45,349 nucleotides of DNA from Chloroflexota bacterium (GTDB lineage: Bacteria; Chloroflexota; Anaerolineae; J102), in contig JAADGC010000133.1 of NCBI GenBank assembly GCA_013152585.1, positions 1 to 45,349 of the forward strand, given 5' to 3'. How positions within the stretch are numbered: the first letter of the stretch is position 1; every line of letters starts with the position of its first letter. Shown piece after piece: positions 19,216 to 31,117 of the stretch. A program made the position numbers and the translations under genes. The notes under the pieces are model-generated. The model had not been told where the DNA came from. It saw nothing but the letters and a program-made list of their open reading frames with translations, and ran no database searches.

Positions 19216-19492
19216 TTCAACCGGATATCAGGGGTCTCTCTGTGACGTTCGGGAGATGGCCAGGACATTTTTTCCCAAACAGAGTATTTTTGGCTACCTC
19301 CCGGCGGGTGCGTCCCCGGAATTTGGGCGTAAGGTTGGAGGTGGCGCTGCGGCGCATCACGGATGCGCCGAGCGCTTCCTTTTTTCGAATGTTGGCCGCA
19401 TCCATGATGCGACCAACACTCGCCACCAAAAACATGGGGCGCACCCCCTCCCGGCGGTCTGAATTGAGACCCCACGAAGCCCCAAAGAGCCA
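19216..19492 (+). repeat. Dispersed long-hairpin repeat family, copy A (interrupted)
   Basis: Starts TTCAACCGGATATCAGGGGT and ends GACCCCACGAAGCCCCAAAG followed by AGCCACC. The middle contains GGGAGATGGCCAGGACATTT and CCCAAACAGAGTATTTTTGG, nearly identical to copy C at 28081-28208. The two arms (GACGTTCGGGAGATGGCC and GGCTACCTCCCGGCGGTC) are complementary in most positions. The right arm is split by the insertion at 19308-19447. Other copies are B (26079-26134) and D (45134-45188). Confidence 0.8.
19308..19447. mobile_element. 140-bp non-autonomous insertion element nested in repeat copy A
   Basis: The 10-bp sequence CTCCCGGCGG occurs directly on both sides (19298-19307 and 19448-19457), as expected of a target-site duplication; copy C of the host repeat has no insertion at this place. 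The insert ends are inverted repeats: GGGTGCGTCCCC (19306-19317) against GGGGCGCACCC (19436-19446). Inside are further palindromes: GGTGGCG/CGCCACC, GGCGCAT-N5-ATGCGCC at 19351-19369, and TGTTGG.CGCAT/ATGCG.CCAACA at 19390-19418. There is no reading frame for a transposase. End-like fragments recur near 37-60 and 35016-35040. Confidence 0.72.
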
Positions 19493-28080: not shown

Positions 28081-28208
28081 TTCATTCGCATCTCAGTGGG
28101 TCTCACTGTGACCTCCAGGAGATGGCCCGGACATTTTTGCCCAAACAGAGCGTTTTTGGCCACCTCCTGGAGGTCAGAAACGAGACCCCACGAAATCCAA
28201 AACAGCCA
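28081..28208 (+). repeat. Dispersed long-hairpin repeat family, copy C (complete)
   Basis: The most intact copy. The 18-base arms GACCTCCAGGAGATGGCC (28110-28127) and GGCCACCTCCTGGAGGTC (28158-28175) pair at all but one position around a 30-base loop. An outer stem GGGTCTC (28098-28104) / GAGACCC (28182-28188) extends it, and flanks TTCATTCGCATCTCA and ACGAAATCCAAAACAGCC match the other copies. It ends about 20 bases before the promoter of the DUF2089 gene. Confidence 0.82.
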
Positions 28209-28228: not shown

Positions 28229-28257
28229 TTGACACAGTTAATATTATAGAGTATAGT
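28229..28257 (+). promoter_or_regulatory. Strong sigma70 promoter of the DUF2089 operon
   Basis: A perfect -35 TTGACA (28229-28234), a 17-base spacer and TATAGT (28252-28257). Transcription should begin near 28264, leaving a short leader with AAAGGAAG before the ATG at 28298. This is the best promoter match in the window. Confidence 0.85.
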
Positions 28258-28297
28258 AGAGCTACTGCTTCAATCTATCTAGTAGGAAAGGAAGATT

Positions 28298-28708
28298 ATG
28301 AAAGAAACTCCCACTGCTTGTCCGTTTTGCGACGGGGACCTCATTGTAGAGGAACTGACTTGTCGGCAATGCGATACCCACTTTCAGGGTCGGTGGACTC
28401 TGGCGGCCAAGCTCGAAGTCGATGCCGAAAAAATGCCGACATTGACACGCTTCGCCCAGCTCTCCTCTGAGCAACTCAAGCTACTTGAGTCTTTCATTCT
28501 ATGTGAGGGCAAGTTGAACCGCCTGCAGGAGGAAGTTGGACTTTCCTATCCCACCCTCCGTTCTCGGCTCAACAACATTATCGAAGCGTTAGGGGGCCAG
28601 ACCACATCTGATACTGACAGTTCCCCGGACCGGCACCAGATCCTGGATAGCCTCGCTGCCGGTGAAATCGCAGCCGAGGAAGCCGCCCAGCTTTTGCGCT
28701 CCCTCTGA
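28298..28708 (+). CDS. DUF2089 protein: zinc ribbon plus helix-turn-helix
   Basis: A 136-residue probable transcription regulator. The N-terminus is a four-cysteine ribbon (CPFCDGDLIVEELTCRQCDT, residues 9-28). Residues about 50-90 resemble a helix-turn-helix (FILCEGKLNRLQEEVGLSYP then TLRSRLNNIIEAL), as in DUF2089 proteins. The last 22 residues (LAAGEIAAEEAAQLL core) match the C-terminal helix pair of the next gene product. In Firmicutes, DUF2089-type proteins sit beside adhesin-like YvlB/LiaX-type proteins linked to envelope stress, so an autoregulatory sensor pair is likely. Ligand and target are unknown. Confidence 0.8.
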   Translation: MKETPTACPFCDGDLIVEELTCRQCDTHFQGRWTLAAKLEVDAEKMPTLTRFAQLSSEQLKLLESFILCEGKLNRLQEEVGLSYPTLRSRLNNIIEALGGQTTSDTDSSPDRHQILDSLAAGEIAAEEAAQLLRSL

Positions 28709-28762
28709 CATGATGTGCAAATCGCCCTCAAACGGGTGCTCGCCGCGGGAGAATTGTCCGGT

Positions 28763-30025
28763 ATGAAAATATTTAGATTTTCACCAGTGGGATTGCTTTA
28801 TATTCATCCTCTTGGCAACGATCTCATCATTCACGGAGACCCCAAGCGCACCGATGTTGAAATCCAGGCATCCACCATTCCCGAAGGTGCCCAGGTATAT
28901 CCCATCGAGGTGCTTGACGCCGAAACCCACATTCGCATTTCGGGCCCGATTACAGTCAATGTCCCGGACAGCATCTCCCTTTTTGTAGAAGGGGAGGTGG
29001 CAGATACGGTGATTCAGCGCGTTGCACATGTTGCGCTGGACGATTGCCTGGGAGACGTCATCGTCAGTGAGATCACATCGCTGCGCTGCAATGGCCAGAT
29101 TAAAGGCAATGTTGCCCTGCGAAAAATCAGTCGTTTTGCTACCCTGCAGCGTGTGCAAGGTGATCTGGTGGCATCGGATGTGGCTTCGTTGCGAACGGAT
29201 GATGTTCGGGGCGACGTGAGCTTGACCAATGTGAATGCAATACAAATGGCCATTGTCAAACACAACTTCACCCTTGTCCACGCTGGCAGCGTACAGATCA
29301 AAGAGGTGGCTGGCGACGTCAAAATTAACAATATCCGAGAATCGATCGCCATCAAACGCATTGGCAGAGACCTCGAAGTTATTTCGGCTGGCACAACCCT
29401 GGCTGCTACCGAGGTCCTGGGCAATGTGCGACTGAATGGCCCGTTGCTGAAAAACGGTAAGTATTGGATCAATGCCGGTGGGGCTGTAGTCGTGCAGGTG
29501 AGTGGAGACGTGCGCATTGCCGTGCGCGCTGCGGGAGAAGTTTTTGCTGGGGATGATCTCCACCTCGTGCAGGAAAAGGGAGATCTCATGACCGCCCAAT
29601 TAGGCGCCGCAGAAATGGCTGCGGACCTCAACATTGTCGCCGGGAGCGACGTCATCCTCAATAGTCCCGGACGTTGGCAGAAACATCGGCGGGCCGTGAT
29701 CGACGCCGAGTTGCAGAAAGCCATGCAAGATGTGCAGGGCGAAATCAAACAAGCTTTGGGAGATGTCGGTAGCCACGTGCGAAGCACTACCACGGCTATT
29801 GCCGACGAAATTCAGCAGCAGGTCAGTGCCGACACACTGGGGCCAACGGTGCGAAATGTGGTGCGCGATATCCTCAGCGCCCTGGAAACAGCGATTCCGC
29901 CCCGGACACCCCCTGCCTCTGCGCCCCCGCGTCCCGAAGAAATGCAGATGGTGTTACAGATGCTGGAACAAGGCACGATCTCTGTAGAAGAGGCAGAGTC
30001 GCTGATCGACGCCTTGCGTTTATAG
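28763..30025 (+). CDS. Beta-solenoid (adhesin/bactofilin-like) protein with C-terminal SHOCT-like helices
   Basis: A 420-residue protein without a signal peptide or membrane helix. Residues about 50-300 consist of short repeating beta strands (DVIVSEITSLRCNGQIKGNV, DLVASDVASLRTDDVRGDVS, DVKINNIRESIAIKRIGRDL), the pattern of DUF4097-like or polymer-forming beta-helices. A helical, Gln/Glu-rich stretch follows (LQKAMQDVQGEIKQALGDVG), and the end (LEQGTISVEEAESLI) repeats the C-terminal motif of the DUF2089 protein. I start it at the ATG 28763 with GGGAG upstream; a GTG at 28715 would add 16 residues. Probably a cytoplasmic structural or sensing partner of the DUF2089 protein; no enzyme motif. 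Confidence 0.7.
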   Translation: MKIFRFSPVGLLYIHPLGNDLIIHGDPKRTDVEIQASTIPEGAQVYPIEVLDAETHIRISGPITVNVPDSISLFVEGEVADTVIQRVAHVALDDCLGDVIVSEITSLRCNGQIKGNVALRKISRFATLQRVQGDLVASDVASLRTDDVRGDVSLTNVNAIQMAIVKHNFTLVHAGSVQIKEVAGDVKINNIRESIAIKRIGRDLEVISAGTTLAATEVLGNVRLNGPLLKNGKYWINAGGAVVVQVSGDVRIAVRAAGEVFAGDDLHLVQEKGDLMTAQLGAAEMAADLNIVAGSDVILNSPGRWQKHRRAVIDAELQKAMQDVQGEIKQALGDVGSHVRSTTTAIADEIQQQVSADTLGPTVRNVVRDILSALETAIPPRTPPASAPPRPEEMQMVLQMLEQGTISVEEAESLIDALRL

Positions 30026-30361: not shown

Positions 30362-31117
30362 TTAAGGGCGCCAAAACAGTCCCAAAATAAATCTGAGCAC
30401 GGCCAGTGTGGCCCATAGCGCCACATGCACTGTCAGAGCCACAGCCAGCCCCGTCGCCAGCAATTGCGAACCCACGACGATGAATGACGTCCAGGTAGGG
30501 AGCTGCGTCGGCAATCCGCCCAGCCCGAGGAGCACGGCCATGGCAATTGCCGTGTAAATCAGGAACTGGCGCAAGGAAGTCACATCACTGGCGCTGAGAA
30601 ACATGGCATCGCTGACAATGAACAGCAAATACAGCCCTAATACACTGTCCGGCTGATAAATAACTTGCTGGATCACGGCCAACAAATTCGAAAAGGAAAA
30701 CTGACGCCACAAAAAATGCAGCGTCTCGAAATCAATCAGCCCATAACTCACCCACACAGTCAAAAAACCCCCCACCAAAAAAGGCGCTATGCCCACCAGC
30801 GTCAATTGCAATAAGTTCCCCCCCCTGACATCCACCGAACCCAGGCGGATGGGCCCCTTGCGTTGAAATTTCGGCAGGACAGTCACATTGCCGGTTTTCA
30901 CGCCCACCAGTTGCGCCATCAGCCAATGGCTGGTTTCATGAATCAGCGTGCCGGGCAAAACAAAGAGTATGTACAGACTCGTCGCTGCGTTTTCGCTGCG
31001 TGTCAGCAGATAAAAGGTGATAACAAAAGACTGGGCCAGTCGGCGACTGACCCAGTATAAGACGAGTAACAGAATAAAGCTCGCTAAGAGGGGGGACCAG
31101 GAGCTGGGGGCAGTCAT
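30362..31117 (-). CDS. Predicted membrane metallopeptidase-like protein (HETSH)
   Basis: A 251-residue membrane protein with about six hydrophobic helices. Residues 59-63 are HETSH, a zinc-binding HExxH form set in a helix (LIHETSHWLMAQLVGVKTGN), which recalls M50-type or related integral membrane peptidases. The second zinc ligand motif of M50 enzymes (NxxPxxPLDG) is absent, so peptidase activity is uncertain. It starts 4 bases after the tpiA stop and ends the glycolytic operon; the link to glycolysis is unclear and may just be cotranscription. Confidence 0.65.
   Translation of the reverse strand: MTAPSSWSPLLASFILLLVLYWVSRRLAQSFVITFYLLTRSENAATSLYILFVLPGTLIHETSHWLMAQLVGVKTGNVTVLPKFQRKGPIRLGSVDVRGGNLLQLTLVGIAPFLVGGFLTVWVSYGLIDFETLHFLWRQFSFSNLLAVIQQVIYQPDSVLGLYLLFIVSDAMFLSASDVTSLRQFLIYTAIAMAVLLGLGGLPTQLPTWTSFIVVGSQLLATGLAVALTVHVALWATLAVLRFILGLFWRP

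Follow-up and report, generated by a model that had tools for sequence, protein, structure and literature searches.

We begin by considering two neighbouring genes in a 45,349-nucleotide contig of a Chloroflexota bacterium (this whole stretch is called the window below), which encode a DUF2089 regulator and a beta-solenoid protein. The preliminary description of this DNA pointed out that both proteins end in a similar motif, and the motifs are indeed found at residues 119-133 of the regulator and 401-415 of the solenoid protein (counted from ATG). A six-frame search of the window finds the pattern L..G.I..EEA...[LI] at two places, which are the two tails. The question is then "do the two tails have a common origin, and does the tail join the two proteins?" The features that enter into the answer are collected in Table 1.

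Table 1. Features of the DUF2089-solenoid locus, in window coordinates
Feature	Coordinates	Strand	Basis
Sigma-70-type promoter TTGACA-17-TATAGT, 11 of 12	28229..28257	+	best match in window
DUF2089 regulator, 136 aa	28298..28708	+	PF22747 and PF09862 above cut-off
Zinc ribbon of regulator (residues 8-35)	28319..28402	+	PF22747, 35.0 bits
Helix-turn-helix of regulator (residues 55-100)	28460..28597	+	PF09862, 63.7 bits
SHOCT-like hairpin of regulator (residues 111-136)	28628..28705	+	PF22746 20.4 bits (below cut-off); profile match to solenoid tail
Candidate ribosome-binding site GGGAG of solenoid gene	28747..28751	+	sequence; inferred
Beta-solenoid protein, 420 aa from ATG (436 aa from GTG 28715)	28763..30025	+	
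Beta-helix body of solenoid (residues 2-300)	28766..29662	+	AlphaFold2 model; Foldseek
Long helix of solenoid (residues 302-346), low confidence	29666..29800	+	AlphaFold2 model
SHOCT-like hairpin of solenoid (residues 392-419)	29936..30019	+	PF22746; model helices 391-402, 408-419

The regulator has a zinc ribbon followed by a helix-turn-helix, and a SHOCT-like hairpin at its C-terminus. It belongs to the DUF2089 family by both of its curated domains (PF22747, 35.0 bits against a cut-off of 27.6; PF09862, 63.7 against 33.4), and its tail scores 20.4 bits with PF22746, below the cut-off of 27. The structure model of this protein is poor (mean pLDDT 50.8, from an alignment of three sequences), and it places the hairpin helices at residues 112-120 and 126-135. 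A literature search, with supplements and most subscription papers outside its reach, found no experimental study of DUF2089 function.

For the solenoid gene, the start is most likely the ATG at 28763 rather than the GTG at 28715, because GGGAG precedes the ATG and alignments with the relatives begin at about residue 16-19 of the longer frame. The AlphaFold2 model (mean pLDDT 78 overall, with ten-residue blocks of 82-98 over residues 61-300) runs from a beta-helix with a high-confidence core through a long low-confidence helix to the hairpin. Its best Foldseek match is 4qrk (E 1.8e-7, with a low TM of 0.15-0.26), which is named as a Toastrack structure in the passages of PMC11237479 on this fold. 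VIA-align scores other beta-helices above it (Z of 7.6 for 4qrk, 10.9 for 4opw and 13.2 for the secreted adhesin EtpA), so the fold agrees with Toastrack and does not decide the matter. The PF13349 (DUF4097) model finds no match in the window solenoid, nor elsewhere in the genome at E <= 0.01; it does match 14 of 23 aligned solenoid relatives at that threshold. The window solenoid reaches three such proteins directly, those of G030 (E 7.5e-15), G039 (3.0e-13) and G052 (2.5e-12), which at loci L129, L133 and L093 score 24.0, 26.3 and 25.5 with DUF4097, all above the curated cut-off of 22.9. Judged by these relatives and by the structure model, the window protein is related to the Toastrack/DUF4097 proteins but divergent; having no PF13349 match of its own, it is not filed under that family. 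Bactofilin (PF04519) has no Pfam match in the window solenoid and one among the 23 relatives (E 0.0074); sequence searches of solved structures gave nothing above chance, and the NCBIfam scan nothing above any cut-off.

We turn our attention to the origin of the two tails. The solenoid tail matches PF22746, the curated Pfam domain "SHOCT-like_DUF2089-C", at 34.0-34.1 bits, above the cut-off of 27. When 23 solenoid proteins are compared with three DUF2089 proteins, profile against profile, the sole region common to both families is the hairpin (residues 390-417 against 108-135, E 1.1e-6, probability 91), and the predicted models give two helices in both tails, the regulator model being the poor one. 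Plain pairwise similarity does not single the tails out, and their homology therefore rests on the profiles. The ungapped score of the two tails is 39, below the shuffle maximum of 43 for any segment, as would be expected if Ala/Glu-rich amphipathic helices had come to look alike by chance or composition. Such a coincidence is hardly credible, since it is contradicted by the PF22746 match, by the recurrence of the tails in relatives, by a profile of DUF2089 tails alone that finds the solenoid tails and by the profile-profile E-value; we reject it on the last two. On these profiles, the conclusion holds that the two tails are one homologous two-helix hairpin, shared by descent.

The best ungapped 25-residue match between the two proteins lies elsewhere, between the regulator zinc ribbon (28328-28402) and a solenoid turn (29045-29119), with a score of 52 that none of 2000 shuffles reaches. 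This likeness probably reflects convergent strand patterns, because close solenoid relatives hold the first cysteine in register and not the second.

Is the hairpin a private link between these two proteins, as the preliminary description supposed? It is instead a widespread named domain: among 61 related genomes, PF22746 is present in 46 and DUF2089 in 42, and a motif restricted to this pair is thereby ruled out. At E <= 1 the PF22746 search of this genome returns six places. At E <= 0.01 there are four, namely the two tails of the window and those of another pair, on contig C86. There, as in the window, a DUF2089 protein with a SHOCT-like tail is followed by another SHOCT-like protein; the C86 locus differs in that the domain is N-terminal on a 125-aa protein, in that GNAT and M29 peptidase genes lie in between, and in that PF04020 (membrane protein) and ABC-2 genes come after.

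The conservation of the motif in both genes, on which the earlier proposal depended, can be followed in the relatives. We considered 45 of 46 DUF2089 places with their surroundings, the window included and G031 (22.2 bits, below cut-off, at a contig edge) left out. By eye, the motif is present in all 45 DUF2089 tails; by HMM, a PF22746 match lies at most 350 bases from DUF2089 in 39 of the 46 places, although a small number of these matches may fall in a neighbouring gene. On the solenoid side, the profile from DUF2089 tails alone finds the tail in 24 of 28 homologues (E-value at most 0.004), and the other four are without an intact C-terminus (contig edge in G028, G013 and G003; broken frame in G048). 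The motif thus recurs in both partners. A solenoid homologue accompanies DUF2089 at 25 of the 45 loci, always on the same strand, and its frame starts less than 700 bases from the DUF2089 end or overlaps it in 22 of these 25 (by 368 bases in G038); in G004, G026 and G057 it lies 1.5-3.7 kb away. Within the stretch examined, no solenoid homologue was found at the remaining 20 loci; a solenoid partner is thus no fixed companion of the regulator, and the PF22746-type domain is present also at loci of this kind. At 26 of the 45 loci there is a small protein whose N-terminus bears a SHOCT-like domain, and 14 of these loci have the solenoid as well. Over the 61 genomes, 95 of 124 SHOCT-like matches fall within 5 kb of a DUF2089 helix-turn-helix, and for 51 of these the distance exceeds 350 bases.

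Two further arrangements were seen directly after DUF2089. At L115 (5332-6501) the place is taken by another kind of solenoid, a pentapeptide-repeat protein that begins with a SHOCT-like domain. In several loci without the beta-solenoid (L027:4760-5764, L089, L108, L120) a GNAT acetyltransferase gene lies directly 3' of DUF2089.

The next question is "do the two hairpins bind each other?" If they did so with partner specificity, the tails of cognate proteins might be expected to vary together. Twenty pairs could be delimited by the pattern, out of the 25 loci with both genes. The tail distances of partners correlate (r 0.28, p 0.017), a correlation accounted for by relatedness: the partial Mantel r is 0.10 (p 0.21, n 20 pairs), and partner-specific covariation was not found. 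The mean distance is 0.629 for cognate and 0.649 for non-cognate tails, a difference that is not significant (p 0.10). In the part of PMC3581485 that concerns it, the canonical SHOCT domain (PF09851) did not act as an oligomerisation domain when tested; that domain resembles the present one in being short, two-helical, mostly C-terminal and carried on many bodies, and it is a separate Pfam family from PF22746. Of all steps in our explanation we are least sure of direct regulator-solenoid binding by way of the hairpin, and we put it forward tentatively, as a possibility with somewhat less than an even chance. The hairpin could also be a shared membrane-docking tag, which brings each protein to the inner membrane face or to a common partner and involves no mutual contact. 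The missing covariation and the SHOCT oligomerisation result speak for such a tag, the hairpin sits on many different bodies (the pentapeptide-repeat protein among them), and the sections of PMC11237479 on SHOCT-like domains predict that these fix diverse domains to the inner leaf of the membrane. Against it, no solenoid protein has a long hydrophobic stretch, not even in its tail, and lipid binding is a prediction. We consider docking without contact less likely than not.

Where does the solenoid protein reside? The statement that it has no signal peptide agrees with a hydropathy scan, in which neither a signal peptide nor a transmembrane segment is evident (maximum 19-residue mean 1.19). In the same scan all 28 homologous frames are free of signal peptides and membrane helices (19-residue means reach 1.44 at most); the protein appears to be intracellular. 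Among its Foldseek matches are several that the PDB lists as putative adhesins, and PMC9239133, in its account of LiaG, calls the DUF4097 domain extracellular; the solenoid might accordingly be imagined to work extracellularly, either in adhesion or as an exposed sensor comparable to the part of enterococcal LiaX that is released. This is very improbable in view of the 28 frames and of a partner that is a DNA-binding protein bearing the same tail.

We next consider the promoter of the pair. What had been called the strongest promoter of the window is its best sigma-70-type sequence match; that part stands, and strength of expression is a prediction from the match. For the comparison among relatives, 44 loci were used (G019, with a short upstream, is left out, and start codons were picked by rule, not annotation). 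Within 110 bases upstream, a match of at least 10 of 12 is found at 36 of the 44 DUF2089 loci and one of 11 or 12 at 26, where a Markov control gives on average 1.1 and 0.10 of 44. The upstreams of other long frames contain 11 and 3 such matches in 373; these frames are lower in A+T (0.40 vs 0.61), and in their A+T-rich subset the numbers are 5 and 1 of 21, which makes the contrast with the DUF2089 upstreams smaller. A TG precedes the -10 in 17 of the 30 sites with a 17-base spacer. The conserved promoter may mean that expression is high at all times, or that a repressor keeps the promoter in check. When the DUF2089 upstreams of 37 loci (the 44 minus near-duplicates, namely six of genus g6, G012 and G014-G018, and G058) were searched for operators, Shine-Dalgarno words came out on top; AATATT occurs in 12 of the 37 (z 6.1 vs a null 95% of 5.6), too weak to claim as an operator. 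The promoters of L027, L088-L130 and the window often carry TTGACAAA and an extended -10.

The flanks of the pair have features of their own. Just upstream of the promoter lies an imperfectly palindromic dispersed repeat of about 116 bases (28085-28200), with a further copy at 19222-19307; the genome holds 47 matches (E <= 0.001), some of which are the two strands of one copy. Downstream, the frame 30362-31117 on the minus strand has no Pfam match at E <= 0.01; it is membrane-protein-like and contains HETSH (HExxH), which is reminiscent of M50 peptidases. Because this next gene is convergent, the transcription unit seems to consist of two genes. The two genes behind their near-consensus promoter form a transcription-unit-like arrangement that recurs, together with the hairpin, in related genomes.

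We now compare this arrangement with known systems. The passages of PMC11237479 (mSystems 2024) on DUF2089 divide the family's proteins into a zinc ribbon, an HTH and a SHOCT-like part, put the family in a conserved four-gene Toastrack context with variants that include LiaI-LiaF-TM, B-box or PspC, and propose intracellular, membrane-proximal signalling with a transcriptional output. The window agrees with that neighbourhood in having a zinc ribbon-HTH-SHOCT-like regulator beside a Toastrack-type protein, terminal SHOCT-like domains and a predicted intracellular location; it differs in that there are just two genes, neither of them for a membrane protein, and in that the solenoid has diverged beyond the reach of the DUF4097 model. 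To the extent that these passages cover it, the tag and gene pairs of this type have been published before as a likely membrane-stress module, and the finding is mostly known. YvlB and LiaX (of yvlABCD and liaXYZ), in their published descriptions, are likewise Toastrack/DUF4097 proteins with a helical or SHOCT-like segment, and act in envelope stress. Their SHOCT-like segment is N-terminal, whereas that of the window solenoid is C-terminal, and LiaX acts on the LiaFSR kinase system while the solenoid's neighbour is a DNA-binding protein. YvlB, a DUF4097 protein, has two-hybrid links to PspA/LiaH and to Yvl proteins in the relevant part of PMC9239133.

The genome studied here encodes PspA and PspC elsewhere. 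At L138, a PspA homologue (701-1447) is followed by a 248-aa frame (1476-2204) with a weak SHOCT-like stretch.

The earlier suggestion of an internal scaffold-regulator module, and not an adhesin, is supported by the hydropathy scans, by the constant strand and by the view taken in those passages of PMC11237479. We favour, with moderate confidence, the reading of the pair as a DUF2089-Toastrack-type intracellular module of a scaffold and a regulator in envelope stress. Its mechanism is the proposal made there for such neighbourhoods, applied to this locus. The solenoid would serve as a scaffold in the cytoplasm close to the membrane and sense envelope stress there, and the SHOCT-like hairpins would gather regulator, solenoid and often the small SHOCT protein on one complex or membrane surface. 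Stress would then release the DNA-binding regulator and alter transcription from its own strong promoter and from other genes. The PspA and PspC genes elsewhere in this genome and its second DUF2089 locus speak for this reading; the 20 loci without a solenoid homologue, the missing covariation, the oligomerisation result for canonical SHOCT, the sub-threshold score of the regulator hairpin and the lack of a DUF4097 match in the window solenoid speak against it. A bolder version, which we think improbable, is an assembly code of these Chloroflexota: the hairpin would join regulator, solenoid and small SHOCT protein into an envelope-stress switch that works without a kinase, the solenoid being Toastrack-like or, at one locus, a pentapeptide repeat. 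DUF2089 would keep its own unusually strong, conserved promoter closed for as long as the scaffold does not draw it off.

The finding confirms in Chloroflexota what PMC11237479, in its general treatment, proposed for bacteria as a whole. Having a single regulator, a single scaffold and a tag common to both, the pair would be a small system for testing SHOCT-like function, and the conserved DUF2089 promoter is a ready reporter.
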